Below are positions 12,020 through 29,728 of a stretch of 33,390 nt of DNA, one piece after another. The stretch is from an uncultured bacterium. GTDB lineage: Bacteria > Desulfobacterota > Binatia > HRBIN30 > CADEER01. The notes beneath the pieces are model-generated. The model worked only from the letters and a program-made list of their open reading frames with translations, did no database searches and was not told the origin of the DNA. The stretch's first letter is position 1, and each line of letters opens with the position of its first letter. The translations under genes were made by a program, and so were the position numbers. Location of the stretch: contig CADEER010000006.1 in the NCBI GenBank assembly GCA_902826395.1, positions 57,505 to 90,894 of the forward strand, in the 5' to 3' direction.

Positions 12020-12190
12020 GGCGGTTTATCCGCTCGTGGTGCAAGGGCGATGCCATGGCGGATTCTCGGCAGCATGCGGAAGCGCGCCGGTCGAGTGATG
12101 CGATCTGCGGGGAACTCTCGCCACGGTCGCCGAAAAGTTGCCGGCGCCAGAGCCGCGACGGCAGTTGGCGAAAGGCCCCCCTCCCGTTCC

Positions 12191-12325
12191 GAGACTGTCG
12201 GAAAACGAAAGATCAGTGACCGTACACGTACTCGTACTCGTACACGGAGTTTCCTGCAGAATTCGGGCATGAATCGTGTACGGGTACGCGTACGAGTACG
12301 TGTACGGGAGAAAATCGACGGTCTC
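12191..12325 (+). mobile_element. Miniature inverted-repeat element, copy A (GTAC-hexamer palindrome)
   Basis: The 135-bp element begins GAGACTGTCG and ends CGACGGTCTC (10-bp terminal inverted repeats, one mismatch). It is bounded by the direct repeat TTCC on both sides (12187-12190 and 12326-12329), as left by transposition. Inside are two facing arrays of GTAC hexamers: four GTACs on the left and five on the right. They flank a loop containing CTGCAGAATTC, so a single strand can fold into a long hairpin. A near-identical copy in opposite orientation is at 29450-29577. No transposase is present, so it would be non-autonomous. Confidence 0.85.
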
Positions 12326-12361
12326 TTCCGAGGAGTGATCGCAAACGCCCCCCCGTTCATC

Positions 12362-12442
12362 CCGAGTAGCGAGCGCAGCGAGCGTATCGAGGGACGGCCC
12401 CCGCGTGCCTCGATACGCCGGGGCTCCGCCCCGGCTACTCGG
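12362..12442. repeat. Cloverleaf-like palindromic sequence
   Basis: The outer arms CCGAGTAGC (12362-12370) and GCTACTCGG (12434-12442) are perfect inverted repeats. Inside them are a 10-bp pair CGTATCGAGG/CCTCGATACG (12383-12392, 12408-12417) and a CCGGGGC/GCCCCGG hairpin (about 12418-12434). It sits 29 bases beyond the thiolase stop, so it could serve as a terminator or mRNA-end structure. It resembles REP-type intergenic palindromes. Only one copy is seen here. Confidence 0.75.
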
Positions 12443-13662: not shown

Positions 13663-13833
13663 CAGGGGTCAGGGGCCAGGGGCCAGGAGCCAGGGTTCAG
13701 GGAATGTAGAATCTTCGCGTTCCGCGAAGATTCCGTCAGTTGGTTGAACGTTCGCGCGCTGATCTCTCCAAACGACGCGCCTTCGCGAAGGCGCCACCAC
13801 CCCTGGTCCCTGACCCCCGATCCCTGACCCCTG
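13663..13833. repeat. Inverted heptamer-array element E1 with short hairpin core
   Basis: Six tandem CAGGGGN-type heptamers run on the plus strand (13663-13704) and are followed by TGTA. A 94-bp core (13705-13798) ends in the spacer CACC. Five heptamers then run on the minus strand (13799-13833). The core holds a perfect 11-bp hairpin (GAATCTTCGCG, TTC loop, 13709-13733) and an 18-bp palindrome (GCGCCTTCGCGAAGGCGC, 13777-13794). No gene is seen in the core. The element follows the stop of the HMG-CoA-synthase-like gene. The arrays are G-tract rich and could also form G-quadruplexes. Confidence 0.85.
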
Positions 13834-15249: not shown

Positions 15250-15391
15250 CGATCAGGGGCCAGGAGCCAGGGGCCGGGGGTCAGGGAATGTACTCTCATC
15301 TGATTCAACATCCTCAGCGCCGATGGGACATTCGGCAGGTTGCACTGACACGCGCACCTGGCCACTATCTGAATTGGTATCTGATTGATCT

Positions 15392-15760
15392 ATGGCGATA
15401 CGTAGCTATCGAGATCTGGTCGTCTGGCAACGGGCCATGGCGCTGGTGGCGGAGTGCTATCAAGCGACCTCGGCACTTCCAAGCTCAGAGCAATACGGGC
15501 TGGTGAGCCAGATCCGTCGGGCTGCCGTTTCAGTGCCATCGAATCTGGCCGAGGGACACGGACGCGCCCACACGGGCGACTACCTGCGTCACATATCCAT
15601 CGCCTATGGATCTCTGATGGAGCTCGAAACCCAGATCCTGATTGCGATCAAGCTGGAGATGATGGCGCGAGGAACAGGCGGCTCCCTCCTTGGCAAGGCC
15701 GCCGAGATCGGCCGAATGCTGAACGGCTTGGAGCGCTCCCTCAAGAATCGAAAACCATAG
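15392..15760 (+). CDS. Four-helix-bundle protein (23S rRNA intervening-sequence protein family)
   Basis: The 122-residue protein has the family hallmarks SYRDLVVWQRAMALV, then QIRRAAVSVPSNLAEGHGR with the conserved S-x-P-x-N-x-A-E-G, then DYLRHISIAYGSLMELETQI. Relatives are encoded in intervening sequences of 23S rRNA genes or as stand-alone genes, and are structurally related to the Avd accessory proteins of diversity-generating retroelements. The molecular function of the stand-alone forms is not established. It is the only plus-strand gene in a long minus-strand run and sits inside inverted CAGGGGN arrays. No ribosome site is visible before ATG 15392. No reverse transcriptase is nearby. 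Confidence 0.9.
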   Translation: MAIRSYRDLVVWQRAMALVAECYQATSALPSSEQYGLVSQIRRAAVSVPSNLAEGHGRAHTGDYLRHISIAYGSLMELETQILIAIKLEMMARGTGGSLLGKAAEIGRMLNGLERSLKNRKP

Positions 15761-15776
15761 CCCCGCCAGGGGCTAT
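15757..15776. terminator. Bidirectional hairpin between convergent stop codons
   Basis: ATAGCCCC and GGGGCTAT form a perfect 8-bp stem with a GCCA loop. The two TAG stops, of the four-helix gene (15758-15760) and the FG-GAP gene (complement of 15773-15775), lie in the two arms. It may end transcription from both sides, although no U-run follows. Confidence 0.6.
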
Positions 15777-17302
15777 CTCCGCCCCTGGCCCCTGGCCCCC
15801 GATCCCTGGCCCCTGACGACATTCCTACCCAACATCATCACCGCCAAAACGAGCAGCAGCGGCCACGCGCCGCCGGTCGCCGCCGGCGCGATCGTCAGGC
15901 AGCCTTCGCCGCGCACTTCGAAGAAGCCGGGCGTCGTGGTGATGGTCGGGGTTGAAGTGCGCGTTGGGCCTTCGGTCCTGGTCGGCGTCTCGGTCGGCGT
16001 CTCCGTCGGTGTCGACGTCTGGGTCGGAGTGCCGGTTTCAGCGGGCGTCAGGGTGACCGTCGGCGTTACGGTCGGAGTGAAGGTCGCGATAGCGATGTTG
16101 TTGCTGAGGAACATATTGATCGAGCCGCCGTCCTGGTTGCCGACGGCGATGTCGAGCTCGGTGTCGCCGTCGAAGTCGGCGACCATCAGCGTTGCCGGTC
16201 CACCGCCCGTGGGGTAGTCGCCGTTCGGCGTCAGGCCGAGATTGCTCCCCCGGTACAGCAGCATGCGGTTGCCGGCGGCATCGGCGGCAATGACGTCGAG
16301 GCGTCCATCGCGATCGAGATCCCCCAGCGCGACGTCGGAGGGGGAGAATCCCGCCGCGTAGTCGCCGCCGTCCTCGACCGCGTAGCCGTTCGGACCGCCT
16401 TGCACGCCAATCAGCACCCGCAGCTCGCCCTCTTCCGCACCCGTGCCGACGAGGACGATGTCGGGAGTGCCGTCGTTGTCGAGATCGCGACCGAGCGTTT
16501 GCGGATCCGCGATCGCGAACGCCGCGAGCTGCAGCTCCGGTGCCTCGAAGAGCAGTTGGCGATCGAGGAACAGGTTCGGAGGAGCCGGGGTGCCGGTCGG
16601 TGTCGGCGGCGGATTCGGATTTTGCCGAAAGAGCTGCAGCCGGCCTCCCTGGTCGAGCACCACGACATCGAGCAGCGTGTCGCCGTCCACGTCCGCCACG
16701 GCGAGCGAGTCGACGGCGTTGCCGACGCGCAGCGACTGGAACGAGGGGGTGATCGCCCCGGGGCCAATGATCTCGACGGAGTTGTCGCCGATGGTACCCA
16801 CCAACAATTCGCATCGGCTGTTCGAGTTGCCGCTGCAACTCCCGACACCGTCTCCGTCGATATCGGCGGCGACGATGGCGCTGGCGTCGAGCCCGCTGAT
16901 CGCGCGGCCAGCCGAGGCCGCGCCTCCGAGGCCGTCGCCGAAGAACACGGCCGCACGGCTCACACTGGCGACGGCGATATCCAGGTTCAGGTCGTCGTTG
17001 TCGAACAGCACGTCGAGGTCACGGGGACCATTATCGGTCAGGGTCGTCACCGTCGTCGCGCGCGAGCAGTCGACGCGCCGCAACGCGATCGGGTCCAGAA
17101 CGATCAGCGAGACGGAGTCGCCGTCGGTGTCGGCGACCACCAGGTCAGGGATGAAATCGGCGCGATTGAGATTGCCGACGACGCCCACGTCGATCGACGA
17201 GAGCCCCGTCTGGCCGCCGGTGATCGCGCAGGTCTGAAACGTCTGCGCGCCGGCGGTGCCGGCCAGCAATGCGATCGCCAAAAGCGAGATGCCGTGTTTC
17301 AC
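15773..17302 (-). CDS. Secreted FG-GAP repeat protein with Thr-Pro linker and Cys-containing C-terminal anchor
   Basis: GTG 17302 is preferred as start because GGGAG lies 8-12 bases upstream; ATG 17320, six codons earlier, is the alternative. A signal peptide (HGISLLAIALLAGTAGAQ) precedes repeated FG-GAP loops such as DLDRDGRLDVIAADAAG and DFDGDTELDIAVGNQDG. A TPT linker of about 50 residues follows, then GEGC, a hydrophobic stretch (WPLLLVLAVMML) and a basic tail. This Cys-hydrophobic-Arg end resembles MYXO-CTERM-type sorting signals. The final about 13 residues (VRGQGSGARGQGR) are encoded by the right arm of element E2, so the original tail was probably shorter. The start follows the larger FG-GAP gene by 21 bp, likely as one operon. 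Confidence 0.85.
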   Translation of the reverse strand: MKHGISLLAIALLAGTAGAQTFQTCAITGGQTGLSSIDVGVVGNLNRADFIPDLVVADTDGDSVSLIVLDPIALRRVDCSRATTVTTLTDNGPRDLDVLFDNDDLNLDIAVASVSRAAVFFGDGLGGAASAGRAISGLDASAIVAADIDGDGVGSCSGNSNSRCELLVGTIGDNSVEIIGPGAITPSFQSLRVGNAVDSLAVADVDGDTLLDVVVLDQGGRLQLFRQNPNPPPTPTGTPAPPNLFLDRQLLFEAPELQLAAFAIADPQTLGRDLDNDGTPDIVLVGTGAEEGELRVLIGVQGGPNGYAVEDGGDYAAGFSPSDVALGDLDRDGRLDVIAADAAGNRMLLYRGSNLGLTPNGDYPTGGGPATLMVADFDGDTELDIAVGNQDGGSINMFLSNNIAIATFTPTVTPTVTLTPAETGTPTQTSTPTETPTETPTRTEGPTRTSTPTITTTPGFFEVRGEGCLTIAPAATGGAWPLLLVLAVMMLGRNVVRGQGSGARGQGRR

Positions 17303-17323
17303 GTGAGCTCTCCCATGCATGAC

Positions 17324-20140
17324 TCAGTCCACCTCGCGACGCCGACGCCGCCCCGCCCACAGCGCGGCGAGGCCGAGCGATAGCGCCGCGGGCGTGTCCG
17401 TCGCTTGCGAATCGGCGATCGCGCAGCCGCCGGAGAGTTGGAATGTCCCGGGCTTGGGCACCGTCGGTGTCCTCGACGGAGTCACCGGTGTCGAGGTAGG
17501 CACCGTCCCAGTAGCGGTCGGCGTGGCGGTGGAGATTGGTGCTTCCGTTGCTGGCGTTACCGGCGTCGGAGTCATGGTAATCGTTGGTGTGGGCGTCGGC
17601 GGCGGCTCGCTGCTGATCAGGATCGAAACCGTGCCATCGCCGTTGGCGGTGACGACATCGTTCTGGGTGTCGAGGTCGACGTCCGCCGTCGCCAGATCGC
17701 GCGGCAGCGGGCCGGTCGCAAGCGGCGCCAGCGACCTGGCGATGCCGCCGGCGGCGTCGCCGAGGCCGAAGACGAGCTGGGCGGTGTCCGGTAGTGAGAC
17801 GACGACGTCGAGCGCCGCATCGAGCGGATCGAAGAACATCGTCGACGCCGCGCTCGCCTGGACGAACAGCGGAAAAGCCAGGACACGCGTCGGCGAGCTC
17901 AGCGTGGCGGTGGTGAGGAGAATCCGCGCCGCCGGCGTCCGGTCGGCGAGGAACACGTCGGCGAGTGCGTCGTCGTTGAAGAATCCGGTTTGCAGCGAAA
18001 CAACCGGGGCCGGCACGGTGGCGGTGCCGGTCGTCGAGAAGGTCGGCCGGCCGCCGGATGGAGCTCCTTGCACCAGGTACAACACGCCGCTATCCGTGCC
18101 GACAACGATGTCGACTCGCCCGTCGCCAGTGACGTCGCCGGCCGAGATCGACCGTGAGCGCGCGTTGATCGGCTGAGTAACCACGGTAAAAGCCGCGCCG
18201 CCGGGGTTGCCATAGAGGATGCTGATCGAGTTCGCCCCGTCGTTGGCCACCAGAACATCGGTCGTATCGTCGCCGTCGATGTCGAGCTCCCGACGCATTT
18301 CGGCGCCGATCGGATTGGCGGCGTAGTCGGTGACGATCTGCACCGGATTGCCGGGCACTGTCGCCTGCAGGGTCGCAATCGGCACCGGCACGCCCTGACC
18401 GTTGATCTGCAGGAAGGAGACCAGGCCGGGCCGCGCGACGGCGATCTCGAGGTCGCCGTCGCCGTCGGTGTCCAGCACCGCCAGATCGCCGGCGCCGGAG
18501 AGCGCCTCCGACATCACCGAGCTGGGCGGATCGGTCGGCGGATCACCGGCGCGCTGATCGCGCGCGCAGGCGCGCAAGTCTGCAGTGCCGGTATTGTAGA
18601 TGATGTGGACACGGCTGCCGTCCGAGACGGCTATGTCCGGTCCGCCACCGTTAAGATCCGCGACCACGACGCCGCGCGCCGCATCGGCCGCACCAACATT
18701 AGATATGTTGTAGTCGCACCGCCCCAGCCCAGCCGTCGGCACCGGAGTCCGCGTCGCCGTCGGCGGCGGCATCGTGCGGGTAGCGGTGGGCCCGGTCGCC
18801 GTCGGGGATCTCGGTGGTGTCGGTGTGCCCACAAGCGGCGTACTCGGTGTGGCCGTCGCCTGATCCCGCACATTCAGAGCGACTCGAAGTTCCTGACCTT
18901 CGGCAGCTAGACCGACGAGATCTAGCAAGCCGTCTCGGTCGATGTCCGCGACCTGGAGGACTTCAGCACCGTTGACCCGAGGGAATCCATCGGAAACACC
19001 TACCGCTCCTACCCCTCCACTCAGGTCTCCGGACTCGTTGCCCGAAATGTAGGAGAGCTCCGAACTGTCGGAGAACACGACGTCCGGCGTCCCATCGCCG
19101 TCAAAGTCCCCTGTCGCAATGCCGTTTGGAATAAACGGTGCATCGAAGTTCGTGCTGGTAAATCGCCGATTGCTGCCAAGTCCCACAAATGTAGTCGCGT
19201 TGAAGTCAAACTGTTGGTCGTTCACTCCCAGAAAATCGTCCGGGCCGGTGTTGTTGAAGTTCGTCACAGCAAACCGGGCTTCCTCGTCTCCGGCAGGCAA
19301 TGCCTGGCTGAGCGAATCGAGAGTGAAATTACCCGCGCCATCACCGTAGATCAGATACGCCACGCCCGTGGGATCGGCGGCAACGACGTCGGTGTTCCCG
19401 TCACCGTCAAAGTCCCCTGTTCGAATATCCGAGACGACAGCATCCTCGAACACGTCGCTGATGATGACGACTTCTGTCGGACATGGGACCAGCATGCCTC
19501 CGTCGTTACAAACAAAGAGGATCTCATCATCGTCCGCTAGTGCGACATCGGCCGCGCCATCCTCGTCAAAATCCGCCGACACAGCCCCAGATATGAAGTC
19601 AGCAAGGTCCTCCACGAAATCGATGGCTTGATCCGGCTGAGCGAACCCACCCTCGCCATCGCCGATCAGCAGGGCGATGTCGCCCGAGTCGTCAGTTACA
19701 AACAGGTCGATATTTCCATCAGGTGCCCCCTGATTCTGATCGAAAGGACCCGTAAAGTCGGCCGCCACAACTGCGATTGGGTCGAGCACCTCTCCAGGCT
19801 CGACTCCGATCGGCTCTTCGAAGGTACCGTCCCCATTTCCGAGGTGCACATTGACGATGCTATCTTCGTTGTTGATCGCTACGATGTCGGGACCGTCGCC
19901 GTCGACATCGGCGATCGCGAACGTATTATAGCGCGGCACGTCAAAGGGAATCGGTCCCGTCAAATCGATCACCGGCTCGTCCAAGATCTGGGAGACACGA
20001 AATCGAGCGCCGCCTGTTGTTTGGCTGAGGCCCTTCGGAGCGTGAACAACGGTCATCACGAACAGAAGGAACAGCCCAACCAACGCGATAGGCGAACACC
20101 ATCTAAACCCGACCTTCAGTAAACGCCTCACGCGCATCAT
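17324..20140 (-). CDS. Large two-part FG-GAP protein with internal and C-terminal Thr-Pro linkers and Cys-containing tail
   Basis: ATG 20140 (or 20137) is chosen because GAGGAG lies directly before it; the frame runs on to 20203 from a TTG. The protein is about 938 residues, with a signal or anchor segment near residues 15-40. Part one is an FG-GAP propeller paralogous along its length to the protein at 21448-23010 (PRYNxxAxAD, FTGPFDQNxGxPDGNID, FVCNDGGMLVPC). A short TPT linker leads into a second FG-GAP part, then a final linker and the end GGCAIADSQA, a hydrophobic stretch and WAGRRRRREVD. Part one is visibly less GC-rich than part two, suggesting a fusion at the internal linker. Function: surface or extracellular binding, not further resolved. 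Confidence 0.87.
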   Translation of the reverse strand: MMRVRRLLKVGFRWCSPIALVGLFLLFVMTVVHAPKGLSQTTGGARFRVSQILDEPVIDLTGPIPFDVPRYNTFAIADVDGDGPDIVAINNEDSIVNVHLGNGDGTFEEPIGVEPGEVLDPIAVVAADFTGPFDQNQGAPDGNIDLFVTDDSGDIALLIGDGEGGFAQPDQAIDFVEDLADFISGAVSADFDEDGAADVALADDDEILFVCNDGGMLVPCPTEVVIISDVFEDAVVSDIRTGDFDGDGNTDVVAADPTGVAYLIYGDGAGNFTLDSLSQALPAGDEEARFAVTNFNNTGPDDFLGVNDQQFDFNATTFVGLGSNRRFTSTNFDAPFIPNGIATGDFDGDGTPDVVFSDSSELSYISGNESGDLSGGVGAVGVSDGFPRVNGAEVLQVADIDRDGLLDLVGLAAEGQELRVALNVRDQATATPSTPLVGTPTPPRSPTATGPTATRTMPPPTATRTPVPTAGLGRCDYNISNVGAADAARGVVVADLNGGGPDIAVSDGSRVHIIYNTGTADLRACARDQRAGDPPTDPPSSVMSEALSGAGDLAVLDTDGDGDLEIAVARPGLVSFLQINGQGVPVPIATLQATVPGNPVQIVTDYAANPIGAEMRRELDIDGDDTTDVLVANDGANSISILYGNPGGAAFTVVTQPINARSRSISAGDVTGDGRVDIVVGTDSGVLYLVQGAPSGGRPTFSTTGTATVPAPVVSLQTGFFNDDALADVFLADRTPAARILLTTATLSSPTRVLAFPLFVQASAASTMFFDPLDAALDVVVSLPDTAQLVFGLGDAAGGIARSLAPLATGPLPRDLATADVDLDTQNDVVTANGDGTVSILISSEPPPTPTPTITMTPTPVTPATEAPISTATPTATGTVPTSTPVTPSRTPTVPKPGTFQLSGGCAIADSQATDTPAALSLGLAALWAGRRRRREVD

Positions 20141-20190
20141 CTCCTCGACGGTCCGGGACAGGGGAAATTCACGCTCGTGAGCGATGCCCG

Positions 20191-20229
20191 GACAAAGACG
20201 CAAGTCTCTGGGCCGACTTGCGGTTTGTC
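20191..20229. repeat. Imperfect hairpin downstream of the nucleotidyltransferase gene
   Basis: CGCAAGTC/GACTTGCG (20199-20206, 20215-20222) form a perfect 8-bp stem, extended by GACAAA/TTTGTC across a small bulge. It lies between the stop at 20361 and the FG-GAP start at 20140, and may terminate the upstream toxin-like operon or shape the FG-GAP leader. Confidence 0.5.
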
Positions 20230-20360
20230 AACCGCGCCGGCGGTGTTGTCGGATGAGAGACCTGCCGCAAAACGCGCCGCGCGTCTCCGCGATATGGCGC
20301 ACTTCCCGGCGCGCCGTCCACGGCGAGCGTCGAGGCTGCTTCGCGAGCACCCGGTCGTCC

Positions 20361-21179
20361 TCAACTCTGGCGGGACAGCTCCGGGAGGACGCCGCGGATC
20401 GAACCCCGGTGGTAGTGAAGTGCGCCTGCGCGGACGGCCGCGCTCACCTCATCATTGCTTCCGCGATAGAGGTCGCCACGCGCGGTCAGGACGCACTGCC
20501 CCGCCTCGGCCGCCGGTAGGGCTGCGATCACGTTTACCGCCTGATCGAGGATACGATGCCACTGCCGCGACAGGTCGGCGGCATCGGGAGGCGGCCCGCC
20601 AAAGTCCAGGCTGGCGACCTCTTCTGCAGAGTAGCGCGCCGTCCGACCCGCTTCGGCGAGGATCGAAGCGGGACTGAATCCGGGATCCTTGCCGCTCGCT
20701 GCCCAGGCGAGATAGCCGAGCGGTTGGACGCGGCGGTCGCACTCGATGACGTCGACCCAGTCGCGCACCTCGAGCCGGCCGACCAGGGCGAGAACCTTGT
20801 TGGTGGCGAGATCGAAGGGATGCAGGGTTAGGCCGAAGTCCACGTGCTCGACGAGCGGGAAGAACCGGAACGCGCTGTCACGAGCCCACTCGAGGATTAC
20901 CGATTCTCCGTCGGCCGAGGCGACCGCCTCGATCAATCCCGCCCGCTGGCGACGGATTTCGAGGTCGAATCCAGCATCGCGCAGGAGTTTCGAGTCGAGG
21001 TCCCAGGACGCGTCGAGCGCGGCGTCGCTGTCGTGAAACAAGTCGACATCGCGCGACCTCCTTGCCGCGCCAATCAGTTCGTTGAGCGCCGCGCCACCCG
21101 CGACGTAGCTCTCGCCCGATCGCCGCCGTTGCTCGGCGATCAGGCGGCAGATTCGTCGCTGGATGGCGGTGAGAGACAT
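20361..21179 (-). CDS. AbiEii/AbiGii-like nucleotidyltransferase (possible toxin)
   Basis: ATG 21179 gives 272 residues; the frame is open further but upstream codons lie inside the partner gene. The N-terminal domain has the nucleotidyltransferase signature: a Gly-Gly at 28-29 followed by D-V-D at 44-46 (ARRSRDVDLF). LHPFDLATNKVLALVGR and RDWVDVIE match the AbiEii-type pattern. Proteins of this class are toxins of type IV-like systems or tRNA-modifying nucleotidyltransferases. The gene overlaps its small upstream partner by 40 bases, typical of toxin-antitoxin pairs, but the partner is not the AbiEi winged-helix antitoxin I would expect. The toxin role is inferred. Confidence 0.8.
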   Translation of the reverse strand: MSLTAIQRRICRLIAEQRRRSGESYVAGGAALNELIGAARRSRDVDLFHDSDAALDASWDLDSKLLRDAGFDLEIRRQRAGLIEAVASADGESVILEWARDSAFRFFPLVEHVDFGLTLHPFDLATNKVLALVGRLEVRDWVDVIECDRRVQPLGYLAWAASGKDPGFSPASILAEAGRTARYSAEEVASLDFGGPPPDAADLSRQWHRILDQAVNVIAALPAAEAGQCVLTARGDLYRGSNDEVSAAVRAGALHYHRGSIRGVLPELSRQS

Positions 21180-21364
21180 GCTCGAATCCGGCCGGCTCGC
21201 TGGAACGCCGCCAGGTCGCCGTACCTGGCGATCGCATTCAGGATCCGAAGCGCCGACTCGACCGATTGCGGGTAGTAGTCCTCGCGCAGATACCACAAGC
21301 ACGCGGCGCGGTACTCGTCTATGAAGTCGCGGAGCTCCGGCTCAACGGTCGCGAGCGAATCCAT
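21140..21364 (-). CDS. Small protein paired with the nucleotidyltransferase (candidate antitoxin)
   Basis: The 74-residue frame starts at ATG 21364 and its end overlaps the nucleotidyltransferase start. It contains LREDYYPQSVESALRILNAI and RYGDLAAFQRAGRIRACL, a helical, mixed-charge sequence consistent with a compact helical protein. I know no named family for it. Overlap and tight order argue for co-translation and a functional pair. It could be an antitoxin or an accessory subunit. Confidence 0.7.
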   Translation of the reverse strand: MDSLATVEPELRDFIDEYRAACLWYLREDYYPQSVESALRILNAIARYGDLAAFQRAGRIRACLSPPSSDESAA

Positions 21365-21447
21365 GCGGCATACTACCGCCTGCCTGTCCTCCGAGTCGAG
21401 TCGAACGGCGAGGCGCGGACCGATGTCGACGGCCGAAGCACCAAAAC

Positions 21448-23010
21448 TCAGCGCCTCCTCCTGCGCCGGCCCACCGCAAGAAGAATCGCGCAGCAGAGGC
21501 CCAGCCAGGACGGCGCGATCGCTTCACGGGCGGCGACGACGGCGCAGCCGTCGTCATCTGAGTCGAATGGCGCGATTGTCGGCCGCACCGTCCCGGTCCG
21601 AGTGGGCTCCGCCGTACGCGATGGCGAAGGCTCGGCGGTCGGCGATGTGGTCGGCTCGACGGTCGCGGTCGGCGAAGGACTCGCCTCGGGGGTCGCCGAC
21701 GCAGTGGGAGTCGGTATCACCGGAGTCTGCGTCGGTTGCCGGACGACGTTGAGGGCGACTTCGAGCTGAGTGCCGTCGCGGACCAGTCCCACCAAGTCCG
21801 GGAGGCCGTCATTGTTCAGATCGGCCGACTTCAGGACGAGAGCATCCGAAAGGAACCGATTGTCGATTCCCCGATCGATGATGATCTCGGCCCCGAGCGA
21901 AGTACTGAAGTCCCCCGTCCCGTCGCCTACAATGTAGGCAAGGCGCGGCGAAGTGGAGAAGAGCAGGTCGGCATCGCTGTCCTCGCTGAAGTTACCCGCA
22001 GTAATCGAAGAAGCGGGCACGGTTTCGAAGGGCAATATGCGCTGAAAATTGCGATTCGCAGCGCCCAGGGAAACCTGGGCATTGTCACCAAATTCCTCAT
22101 CGCTGACCGTTACGACGTCATCAAACCCGTCGTTGTTGAAGTCGGTCGCGGTAATACTCGCGTACAGATCAAAGGCGTCCCCAGGCACAACGATCCCCAG
22201 GCCCAGCGTGAAACGACCGCCTCCGTCGCTGAAGATCGGATAAACCAGGCCTCGGTTGCTAGCGAGCGCGGCGACATCGGGGCGATCGTCATTGTCGAAG
22301 TCGCCAACGGCGAGGTCGACGATGATTGCGTCGCCCTCGTTGTCCACTACGACGTAGGTCTCCGAGCATAACTGGAGTACCCCGTCCTCATTGCAGACGA
22401 AAGCAACCTGGTCTTGGTCGGCAAGAGCCAAGTCCAGATCGCCATTCCCATCGAAGTCGGCCGCCACGGCGCCAAAAACATCAACTGTGCCGAGCTCGTC
22501 GAGAAGCTGATCGGGCGTCGCGAAGTTGCCATCGCCGTCGCCGATCATGATCGTCACGGCGCCGAAATCATCGACCAAGGCCAGGTCGATGTTGCCATCC
22601 GGCCTGCCCTCATTTTGGTCGAACGGTCCCGTGAAGTCGCCCGGCACCACGGCAATCGGGCTGAAGGTGTTGTCGTCTGAGTCGACTGCTTCGATGGTGA
22701 CTGGGTCCTCGAAGAGGCCCGAACCGCTGCCGAAGTTCAGGTTGAGCTCATCTTGATCCGTATCCACCGTCACCAGATCGACGATGTTGTCTCGATTGAG
22801 GTCGGCGAGCGCGATCAGGTTGTAGCGGGGCGTATCCTCGGGCGGCGAATCCTCGAGGTCGATGACGAACTGGTCGATCACTTGATCGACGCGCAGGCGG
22901 ATGCTCGGGCTCACGAAGCCAGCCCCAGATCCGACCGCCGACAGCGCCACCAACGCAACGCCGGCCAAGGCGCAAGAACTCCCCCATACAATGATGGTTC
23001 GCCAGCTCAT
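21448..23010 (-). CDS. Secreted FG-GAP protein with Thr-Pro linker and Cys-containing C-terminal anchor
   Basis: ATG 23010 follows AGGAGGGG. The 520-residue protein starts with a signal peptide (WGSSCALAGVALVALSAVGSG) and then a propeller of FG-GAP loops (DFDGNGDLDLALAD, DFNNDGFDDVVTVSD). It is paralogous to part one of the neighbour at 17324-20140, sharing FTGPFDQNEGRPDGNID and FVCNEDGVLQLC. A TPT/TxEP linker leads to DDDGCAVVAA, a hydrophobic segment (SWLGLCCAILLAVG) and a six-Arg end, the clearest Cys-hydrophobic-Arg sorting tail of the set. Likely exported and attached to the cell surface after processing at the Cys region. The processing enzyme is not in the window. Confidence 0.88.
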   Translation of the reverse strand: MSWRTIIVWGSSCALAGVALVALSAVGSGAGFVSPSIRLRVDQVIDQFVIDLEDSPPEDTPRYNLIALADLNRDNIVDLVTVDTDQDELNLNFGSGSGLFEDPVTIEAVDSDDNTFSPIAVVPGDFTGPFDQNEGRPDGNIDLALVDDFGAVTIMIGDGDGNFATPDQLLDELGTVDVFGAVAADFDGNGDLDLALADQDQVAFVCNEDGVLQLCSETYVVVDNEGDAIIVDLAVGDFDNDDRPDVAALASNRGLVYPIFSDGGGRFTLGLGIVVPGDAFDLYASITATDFNNDGFDDVVTVSDEEFGDNAQVSLGAANRNFQRILPFETVPASSITAGNFSEDSDADLLFSTSPRLAYIVGDGTGDFSTSLGAEIIIDRGIDNRFLSDALVLKSADLNNDGLPDLVGLVRDGTQLEVALNVVRQPTQTPVIPTPTASATPEASPSPTATVEPTTSPTAEPSPSRTAEPTRTGTVRPTIAPFDSDDDGCAVVAAREAIAPSWLGLCCAILLAVGRRRRRR

Positions 23011-23033
23011 TTCCCCTCCTGGGTCGATCGCGG

Positions 23034-23076
23034 GCAGAGGAAACCTCTGCGTTCATCCGCGTTCATCTGCGGTTCC
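23034..23076. repeat. Hairpin plus 10-base tandem repeat
   Basis: GCAGAGG/CCTCTGC (loop AAA, 23034-23050) is followed by two GCGTTCATCY decamers (23049-23068) and the related GCGGTTCC. It lies between two FG-GAP genes on the minus strand. The TGCGTTCATC pattern resembles short dispersed repeats I have seen in environmental bacterial genomes; this is memory, not a search. Confidence 0.65.
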
Positions 23077-23128
23077 GATCTCTTCGCCGCTTCGAGGTTT
23101 CCAACTACCTCGACCTCGTGCATCGCCG

Positions 23129-24529
23129 TCAGACGCAGCCGTTCAGGGCGCGATTGACCGCCGCGATCAACTCGTTGATCGCCACGACGCCGTTGCCGTT
23201 GCCGTCCATTGCCTGGCAGGCGCCGACCTCGGTGTTGCCGAGGGCGATGTTGACGCCGGTGATCAGCTCGTTGATGGCGACGGCGCCATTGCCGTTGCAG
23301 TCGCCGGCACAGGCGATCGGCTGGGGGCCGTTGCGCAAGGCCTGGATCTCGGTGGCGAAACTGATGACCGCAACCAGATCCGGCGTGCCGCTGCGGTCGA
23401 GGTCGGCGCTCTCGATCGCGATGCCGCCGGTGATCGGCTCGAGGCCGGCGGTAACGGGCGCGCCGAAGACACCGCCTTCGGCGCCCTTCATGAAGGCGCT
23501 GGACATCAGATTCTCGAACTCGTCAAAGCCGACCACGACCACGTCGAGCAGGTCGTCATCGTCGAAATCGTCGAGCACCAACGCGCTGCCGATCTCGCCG
23601 GCTGGGTAGTCGGTGCGGATGAAGCCGTCCGGGGCGTCGCCGGCGATGAAGACGCTGAGCATCGCCGTGGGAGCATCGCCGCTGGTGTCCGACGAGAGCA
23701 CGACGATGTCGTCGGTTGGCTCGCCGGCGATCGACCCGACGCGCAGAGCCCGCGGCTCGACGCCCGCCTCGGCCGCGATGGTGATCGGCTCGACGATCTC
23801 GTCGAAGGTGCCGTCGCCGTTGCCGTGGATGACGTAGAGCTGGCCGGAGTCGAAGTCGACCGCCGCGACGTCGAGGCCGCCGGCGCCGTCGAAGTCTCCG
23901 ACGTCGATGTCGACAAGGTCGAACGAGAACTCGTCCAGGAAGACCACCGGCGTCGGGCAGCCCTGCAGTGTGCCGCCGTCGTTGCAGAGAAAATAGACGC
24001 CGTCGAAAGATTCGAGCAGGGCCAGGTCGTCGCGGCCGTTGCCGTCGAAGTCGGCTACCGCAACGCCGGCGATCTCGACGGTGTCGAGATCGTCGAACGC
24101 CTGGTCGGGTTCGTCGAACGTCCCGTCGCCGCGCCCGATGAAAATCTGCAGACCGCCGATCTCGTCGACCACGACGACATCCGGGATCCCATCGATGTCG
24201 CCTCCGGTCGCGAACGGCGACGTGAGGTCGGCGATCGCCACGGCGCTGGGCAGGTCGGCCAGTCCGACCAGGGATCCCCCGTCGAACGTCCCATCGCCGT
24301 CGCCGAGGTAGACGGTGACCTCTTCACTGTCGGCGTCGATCACCACCATGTCGGTGATGCCATCGTCGTCGAGATCGCCGAGCGCCAGCGACTGCACCCC
24401 CGTCTCTTCGCCGACGTTGTGCTCGATCGGCGGCAAGGTGGTGAACTCCGGAATGCCGCCGGCGAACGCCGTCAGTGAGAGAAGACAAACGAGAAAGAGC
24501 TGATTGGTCGCGCGCATCGCCTTGGGCAT
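23129..24529 (-). CDS. Secreted FG-GAP protein with Cys-flanked double EF-hand (dockerin-like) tail
   Basis: ATG 24529 starts a 466-residue protein with a signal peptide (LFLVCLLSLTAFAGG). The body is the third paralogue of the local FG-GAP family (DLDDDGITDMVVIDAD, DFDGNGRDDLALLES, FLCNDGGTLQGCPTPVV). There is no Thr-Pro linker and no Cys-hydrophobic-Arg tail. Instead, the last about 65 residues are ACAGDCNGNGAVAINELI and DGNGNGVVAINELI calcium loops framed by four cysteines and ending LNGCV. The same module ends the propeller protein at 2816-4051. So this paralogue has swapped its C-terminal tail type. Confidence 0.88.
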   Translation of the reverse strand: MPKAMRATNQLFLVCLLSLTAFAGGIPEFTTLPPIEHNVGEETGVQSLALGDLDDDGITDMVVIDADSEEVTVYLGDGDGTFDGGSLVGLADLPSAVAIADLTSPFATGGDIDGIPDVVVVDEIGGLQIFIGRGDGTFDEPDQAFDDLDTVEIAGVAVADFDGNGRDDLALLESFDGVYFLCNDGGTLQGCPTPVVFLDEFSFDLVDIDVGDFDGAGGLDVAAVDFDSGQLYVIHGNGDGTFDEIVEPITIAAEAGVEPRALRVGSIAGEPTDDIVVLSSDTSGDAPTAMLSVFIAGDAPDGFIRTDYPAGEIGSALVLDDFDDDDLLDVVVVGFDEFENLMSSAFMKGAEGGVFGAPVTAGLEPITGGIAIESADLDRSGTPDLVAVISFATEIQALRNGPQPIACAGDCNGNGAVAINELITGVNIALGNTEVGACQAMDGNGNGVVAINELIAAVNRALNGCV

Positions 24530-24550
24530 GAAACGAGCGATACCAAAGAG

Positions 24551-24613
24551 CAGGGGCCAGGGGCCAGGGGTCGGGGCTTGGCCTGGTCCCTGGCCCCTGG
24601 CCCCCGACCCCTG
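24551..24613. repeat. Inverted heptamer-array element E3, hairpin without core
   Basis: Four plus-strand heptamers (24551-24578, CAGGGGC CAGGGGC CAGGGGT CGGGGCT) face four on the minus strand (24586-24613), separated by about 7 bases. It lies 4 bases past the dnaA stop and could form a long hairpin. The plus strand has four G4 tracts with loops of 3, 3 and 2 bases, a canonical G-quadruplex motif. Confidence 0.85.
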
Positions 24614-28229: not shown

Positions 28230-29339
28230 TCAGGCCCCCTCGTAGATCTCCTTCAGACGCGACGCGATGCCGTGCCAACCGAACGCCGCAACCGATTCGC
28301 GAGCGCGACGCCCCAGCTCGTCGCGATTGCGCAGCGCATCGCCGATGCGATCGGCGAGCTCGGCTTCGTTGCCCGCGGTCACCAGGTAACCGCTGCGGCC
28401 ATCCTCGACCAGGGTCTGCACGCCGCGAAGGCGGGAGGCGACCACGGGCGTGCCGCACGCCATCGCCTCCAGCAGCACGAGGCCGAAGGCTTCGGTGCGG
28501 TCGACCGAAGGCAGCACCACGACGTCGGCGGCCGCGTAATAACTCGGCAGATCGCGATCGCTTATGTCACCCACAAAGAGAGCGCGCCGGCCGAGGTGTT
28601 CGGCCGCGTGGCTCTCGTAGCGCGGCTGCAACTCGCCCGCTCCGCCTACTACCAGCGTTGCGTCGGGCACGTTGCGCAGCGCGCGCACGAGGACGTGCAG
28701 CCCCTTGAAGTAATGAGCGCGGTCGAGTCGCGATAGAAAGAACACCAGCGGGCCGTCGGGCAGGCGCAGGTCGCGGCGCGCCGCGGCACGGTCGCGCGGC
28801 TGGAACACTGCCGTGTCGACGCCGGCCGGCAACACCCTCACCCGCTCGTCGAGCGACGGCATGCGCTTGCCGAGAAACTGCGAGGATTCAGCGTAGTCGA
28901 GCGAGGTCACGAGGATTCGGTCGGCGGCGCGAAGGATTGCCGGAAAGGCGAGGCGGCGATGCCATTCGAATAAGGTGGCCTTCCAGCTCACCCCAACGAC
29001 ATCCATCTGGTACTGGACGAACAGCGGCGGTCCCCCTATGAGGCGGCGCGCCGCCGCCAGCTCCGCCGTGCCGAAGAACGGATAGTGCAGGTGGACGATG
29101 TCAAAATCGCGACAGCGGCCGAGGATCTGCGGCAGGCACGCCGCGTTGCCGTAGCGCAGCAGCGGCGTCAGCTCGACCACCTCGACTCCCCGCGGCGTCA
29201 GACGCGGCGTGTCGGATGCGGGAGTGAATACGGTGACCTGTACCCCCAGATCGGCCAGCGCCTCGGCCTGATGGTATGCCACGCTCCCCATGCCGCCGCG
29301 GTATGGGGGAAACACCGGGGTCAGGTGTGCGATGCGCAT
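28230..29339 (-). CDS. Family-4-type glycosyltransferase
   Basis: The 369-residue protein begins RIAHLTPVFPPYRGGMGSVA, the GT-B/GT4 opening that binds the acceptor. The donor-binding E-x7-E box is TEAFGLVLLEAM, followed by GTPVVASRLRG. FLSRLDRAHYFKGLHVLVRA is the usual donor-domain strand. GT4 enzymes transfer sugars from NDP-sugars. Divergent from the gmd-fcl-ABC exporter genes, it probably contributes to the same surface polysaccharide. Substrate is not inferable. Confidence 0.9.
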   Translation of the reverse strand: MRIAHLTPVFPPYRGGMGSVAYHQAEALADLGVQVTVFTPASDTPRLTPRGVEVVELTPLLRYGNAACLPQILGRCRDFDIVHLHYPFFGTAELAAARRLIGGPPLFVQYQMDVVGVSWKATLFEWHRRLAFPAILRAADRILVTSLDYAESSQFLGKRMPSLDERVRVLPAGVDTAVFQPRDRAAARRDLRLPDGPLVFFLSRLDRAHYFKGLHVLVRALRNVPDATLVVGGAGELQPRYESHAAEHLGRRALFVGDISDRDLPSYYAAADVVVLPSVDRTEAFGLVLLEAMACGTPVVASRLRGVQTLVEDGRSGYLVTAGNEAELADRIGDALRNRDELGRRARESVAAFGWHGIASRLKEIYEGA

Positions 29340-29728
29340 CCGCCTACAATTTTCCGCGTCGTCCGCCGCGCCATCGCGACGTTCCTATTCTGTCGCGGAT
29401 GGGGAGTCGAGCGCCGGCGAGCGAAACGCAAGCCGCCGCCACCGCCGACGAGACTGTCGATTTTCTCCCGTACACGTACTCGTACGCGTACCCGTACACG
29501 ATCAATGCCCGAATTCTGCAGGAAACTCCGTGTACGAGTACGCGTACGGTCACGAATCATCGTCTTCCGACAGTCTCCGACCGCAGGGGGGAAAGTCGGA
29601 GCGCGTGCGACGGCGGGCTTGTCTCCTCGTACCCGCTTGTCTAAAGAGGGGCGTCACCGTCGGACGCCTTCCCGTGCAGCTCCCACTGCCCTGTGGCCCC
29701 GGTGAAATCATCTTCTTATGGAGTCTGT
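29340..29728. other. 389-bp divergent spacer between glycosyltransferase and gmd
   Basis: It contains GTAC palindromic element copy B (29450-29577). The rest should include two divergent promoters. I cannot assign them convincingly. Open frames through it are shadows of the palindrome. Confidence 0.7.
29450..29577 (-). mobile_element. Miniature inverted-repeat element, copy B (GTAC-hexamer palindrome)
   Basis: The 128-bp element has perfect 10-bp terminal inverted repeats (GAGACTGTCG ... CGACAGTCTC) and flanking direct repeats CGAC (29446-29449 and 29578-29581). Read on the minus strand it matches copy A at 12191-12325, but one arm has three GTAC hexamers rather than four. The CTGCAGAATTC loop is conserved. 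It carries no gene. Confidence 0.88.

Follow-up and report, generated by a model that had tools for sequence, protein, structure and literature searches.

The window, a 33,390-nucleotide stretch of DNA from an uncultured bacterium (contig CADEER010000006.1), contains a GTAC-rich palindrome that raises two questions: whether it is a transposable element and, if so, how it chose its targets. A sequence-only reading had proposed that this palindrome and an inverted second copy are an unrecorded miniature transposable element with 4-bp target duplications. The coordinates given for the two copies (12191 to 12325 and 29450 to 29577) were exact, and 10-bp terminal inverted repeats, each pair flanked by its own 4-bp repeat (TTCC or CGAC), could be read at both. 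The copies and their parts are as follows.

12191 to 12325, plus strand: miniature transposable element (MITE) copy 1, 135 bp, from its sequence, the count in the assembly, and the reading of its ends
12187 to 12190, no strand: left target duplication of copy 1, TTCC, read from the sequence
12191 to 12200, plus strand: left terminal inverted repeat of copy 1, GAGACTGTCG, an IS1182-type end
12220 to 12246, plus strand: internal hairpin of copy 1, left arm (GTAC hexamers), from inverted repeat I12 and the fold
12250 to 12264, plus strand: conserved loop core of copy 1, TTTCCTGCAGAATTC, the probe for copy counting
12281 to 12307, plus strand: internal hairpin of copy 1, right arm (GTAC hexamers), from inverted repeat I12 and the fold
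12316 to 12325, minus strand: right terminal inverted repeat of copy 1, reading CGACGGTCTC on the plus strand
12326 to 12329, no strand: right target duplication of copy 1, TTCC
29450 to 29577, minus strand: MITE copy 2, 128 bp, in the orientation opposite to copy 1
29446 to 29449, no strand: left target duplication of copy 2 (L035), CGAC
29578 to 29581, no strand: right target duplication of copy 2 (L035), CGAC

The two ends of copy 1 (GAGACTGTCG and CGACGGTCTC) match at 9 of 10 positions, with the mismatch at the right end, and those of copy 2 (GAGACTGTCG and CGACAGTCTC) match at all 10. Both copies are intergenic, and they are complementary to each other at 93% over 107 nt. In their interior, two arms built of degenerate NCGTAC hexamers pair with each other, and a conserved loop contains TTTCCTGCAGAATTC; folded as single-stranded DNA, copy 1 reached −37 kcal/mol (z = −5.3 versus shuffles). 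The window also holds a dispersed repeat, GAGTAGCGAGCGCAGCGAGCGTATCGAGGGAC, at 12350 to 12440, which is present in congener genomes too, and several proteins with FG-GAP-like repeats, long linkers of Thr/Pro, and 12-bp degenerate repeats in the DNA (49 to 525, 1132 to 2634, and 15773 to 24529).

Across the source assembly (a 6.09-Mb draft in 423 contigs), the TTTCCTGCAGAATTC core gave 111 matches with at most 2 mismatches, and the reversed control gave none. Both ends could be read for 62 of these copies. An exact 4-bp direct repeat flanked 39 of the 62, compared with a mean of 2.3 and a maximum of 7 when the pairing of left and right flanks was shuffled. Exact repeats of length 3 and of lengths 5 to 9 were absent among the 62 copies, and the per-base identity of the flanks was 0.82 at length 4 versus approximately 0.2 to 0.3 at the other lengths from 2 to 9. 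The duplicated 4-mers comprised 25 different sequences. Copy lengths were mainly 122, 128, 134/135, 140/141, and 146 bp, that is, in steps of one 6-bp GTAC unit, indicating that the arms gain or lose hexamers. The median pairwise identity of the copies was 93%; six pairs had identities of 98% or more when gaps were included (98.6 to 99.3%), with unrelated flanks in 6 of 6, so that movement went on until fairly recently.

Core searches of three congeners (G001, G002, and G003) found no copy of the element anywhere. Orthologous loci were also compared, as the sequence-only reading had suggested along with a search for further copies: the copy 2 locus is syntenic in all three congeners and the element is missing there, but the exact orthologous empty site was not found, because this intergenic stretch has diverged too far and borders on a local inversion. 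In the region 28230 to 29693, the glycosyltransferase gene beside copy 2 has the opposite orientation to that in each of the three congeners. In the congener contig that matches best, the neighbors of copy 1 do not lie next to each other, and the locus of another copy (L012) had no long match in the congeners. In collections from which records very near the source genome may be missing, GTDB contigs yielded no match to a longer core pattern, plasmids and phages no copy of the element, and viral contigs no core.

Neither result that would have refuted the sequence-only reading was obtained, as further copies with 4-bp duplications are numerous and the three congeners lack the element. The copies, their duplications, and their absence in relatives show that the element is mobile, and the GTAC-rich palindrome is a MITE (a nonautonomous DDE element). 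It is short (122 to 146 bp) and without a transposase gene, it has GRGACTGTCG terminal inverted repeats at both ends and a target duplication of fixed length (4 bp), and its copies are dispersed (111 matches) and missing at related loci (none in three congeners). Its palindromic form, its high copy number, and the intergenic position of both window copies would also suit a REP/BIME-like palindrome that owes its spread to a tyrosine (RAYT) transposase or to recombination, with coincidental flanking repeats. We consider this origin extremely improbable and rejected it, given the true terminal inverted repeats and the exact 4-bp duplications at 39 of 62 copies; to our knowledge, RAYT/IS200-type movement leaves no target duplication.

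The sequence-only reading could not assign the ends to a family. We searched 395 genomes of the phylum, regardless of their genes, with the end pattern GRGACTGTCGNAAAAC and found it in 20, the source genome included. Outside the source genome, the pattern marks, among others, short paired-end elements (MITEs). It also marks complete 1.8-kb elements (approximately 1.84 kb) that have nearly the same ends on both sides and an open reading frame of 529 to 538 aa; such frames scored 303 and 298 bits on the IS1182 model NF033551 (NCBIfam cutoff, 270). These matches, in which the identity of the ends covers 10 to 16 bp only, show that the MITE ends are of the IS1182 type, and an IS1182 transposase probably did the moving. 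IS1182 elements of the same order were tried as well and rejected, their ends being different. In the phylum, IS1182 elements and MITEs that have GAGACTGTCG at their ends (L159 to L188 and L202 to L205) often lie after a TAAC- or CAAC-like sequence and have 3-bp AAC/GTT duplications, a context that recalls integron attC core sites.

Searching for a transposase through the ends thus led to IS1182 elements in other genomes of the phylum but not in the element's own assembly. The absence of a transposase from the window had been noted from the start, and it extends to the draft assembly of 423 contigs for the two DDE domains searched, DDE_Tnp_1_6 (PF13751) and DDE_Tnp_1 (PF01609); DDE_Tnp_1_6 was not found in the source organism's family either. 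Therefore, the parent has been lost, was not assembled, or belongs to another family. The last case, in which another DDE family (rve-type or unknown) moves the MITE and the IS1182-like ends arose by chance, would account for the assembly without PF13751 and PF01609. It would also account for the length of the duplication: IS1182 elements with the same end (in G120 and G155) duplicate 3 bp (AAC), compared with 4 bp for the MITE, although we do not regard the family as a whole as defined by this length. We regard such a coincidence as unlikely. A search with the 16-letter end pattern that took no account of genes arrived at IS1182 transposases and at paired-end MITEs elsewhere, and another IS1182 element of the same order ends in GAGCTTGTAGAAAAAC, which is identical to the MITE end pattern at 12 of 16 positions. 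Moreover, IS1272, also of the IS1182 family, targets hairpins (PMC4923244, PMC5678879).

Target choice was absent from the sequence-only account. We rebuilt empty sites by joining the left flank to the right flank minus the second repeat. Perfect stems, 7 bp or longer, were present at 35 of 56 rebuilt sites, compared with 2% of random window positions, and most of them had their center no more than half a base from the midpoint of the duplication. When mismatches were allowed, at least 7 of 9 pairs formed at 45 of 58 rebuilt sites, compared with 3.6% of random positions. The target palindromes belong to at least three unrelated families, which take most of the targets:

Family 1: CCCCGGC-TTTC-GCCGGGG
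Family 2: CCTCTCCC-NNNN-GGGAGAGG
Family 3: CCCCTCCTTGNCAAGGAGGGG

Families 1 and 2 also occur uninterrupted in the source genome, and an uninterrupted CCGGCGAAAGCCGG palindrome (family 1) is present in the congener G002. The possibility that the outer palindromes are part of the element was rejected on these grounds, namely, the several families and the two that occur uninterrupted in the same genome. Copy 1 sits in a degenerate CTCC/GGAG palindrome; at copy 2 and a few other sites, no clear palindrome was found at the rebuilt site. These results show that insertion occurred mostly at the axis of preexisting palindromes. The elements are a family of hairpin-axis-targeting MITEs, of the IS1182 type by their ends. 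RNA folds of two sites had the host stem still paired, with the element stacked on it. In targets with 3-nt loops, the 4-bp duplication includes one closing base, so that a 4-bp staggered cut centered on the axis fits better than strict duplication of the loop.

Taken together, we think it likely, with good confidence, that the MITE is a nonautonomous DDE transposon moved in trans by an IS1182-type transposase that cuts at palindrome axes. Acting in trans on the GRGACTGTCG ends, the transposase would make a 4-bp staggered cut with a palindrome's axis of symmetry at its center; most such cuts would fall in the loop of a hairpin already present and leave that loop duplicated. The MITE being itself a long hairpin, its insertion in a loop would lengthen the host hairpin and leave the host stem still able to pair, and for this reason the insertions are probably mild; the preserved host hairpin would lower their cost. 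What the enzyme recognizes would be a cruciform or a single-stranded hairpin rather than symmetry of the duplex. A transposase that recognizes a small number of intergenic repeat families by their duplex sequence, and not by hairpin structure, is a possible but distinctly less probable explanation. Symmetric duplex targets would center the cut too, and most targets do fall in three repeat families; however, no sequence is common to these families, 25 different 4-mers were duplicated, and the feature that the targets share is symmetry about the cut.

Recognition of a hairpin by an IS1182-type transposase has a precedent in IS1272/TnSha1 (IS1182 family, Staphylococcus), which targets hairpins of unrelated sequence, often terminators, removing part or all of the target hairpin without a duplication (PMC4923244, PMC5678879). 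The MITE resembles IS1272 in its IS1182-type ends and its hairpin targets of unrelated sequence. Unlike IS1272, it is an element of 122 to 146 bp and not an insertion sequence, and it keeps the hairpin arms on both sides with a 4-bp duplication at the axis, so that IS1272-like hairpin replacement does not describe it. Insertion into a cruciform loop with duplication of the loop only was drawn as a theoretical alternative (pathway c in Fig. 13) in a study whose own data supported hairpin replacement (PMC5678879), and the natural sites of the MITE, read from sequence alone, mostly fit this alternative. Insertion at an axis as such is not new, since ISRm22 insertions lie at the axis of the palindrome and come with direct repeats (PMC1525189). 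ISRm22, IS1397 (IS3 family), and IS621 (IS110) all insert in intergenic REP palindromes (PMC1525189); those elements target REP sequences, whereas the MITE uses several unrelated palindromes.

The interior of the element has counterparts of its own. Inverted arms of GTAC hexamers, almost the same as the MITE arms, flank PF05635 (23S_rRNA_IVP/TIGR02436) genes in G004 and G012, and the arm in G012 matches the MITE arm at 28 of 28 bases (loci with such arms, L247 and L255). PF05635 is the family of the 23S rRNA intervening-sequence protein. A second MITE subfamily in the source genome has the ends of the GTAC-type elements, with arms of GGCGAG; of its four examples (L024, 1639 to 1780; L026, 140 to 281; L009, 1221 to 1372; and L113, 730 to 883), one lies in a TTTC loop. 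In the source genome, a PF05635 gene (L084) is likewise enclosed by GGCGAG arms. Across the order, inverted repeats (at least 20 of 24 bases, at most 330 bp away) were present at 20 of 29 PF05635 genes and at 0 of 216 control positions; the arms are 6- to 8-bp degenerate repeats whose unit is usually different each time. These cassettes differ from the MITE in carrying a gene, and those of the source genome have no GRGACTGTCG end pair around them. Our literature search found no published description of inverted arms at PF05635 genes. In the window, a TIGR02436/PF05635 four-helix-bundle gene (15392 to 15760) is enclosed by inverted arms made of short repeats of the CAGGGGCC type (15253 to 15816), and the arms of hairpins at 13663 to 13833 and 24543 to 24613 are of the GGGGCCAGG type, like those of the PF05635 cassette, and are separated by little sequence or none.

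Our guess is that IS1182-type ends captured a PF05635-type hairpin, which gave the MITE its arms. More broadly, and tentatively, the interior of the MITE may be a gene-less member of an unrecognized class of mobile cassettes, PF05635 genes in short-period degenerate inverted arms, such hairpins having been captured by IS1182-type ends at least twice in this genome (GTAC and GGCGAG). If true, this capture would join two hairpin-based mobile systems, and the match of the arms points to a possible mobile context for the little-understood PF05635 family.

For the choice of hairpins by DDE transposases, the best-documented case that we found is one staphylococcal element, which destroys its target. 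The more than 50 rebuilt natural sites described here, most with the hairpin kept and a 4-bp duplication at the axis, make the loop-duplication alternative directly testable, and they support a rarely documented way of transposon target choice. A hairpin element that lands in the loops of hairpins can multiply with terminator-like stems left unbroken, which suggests a route by which this MITE may have reached its approximately 110 copies.
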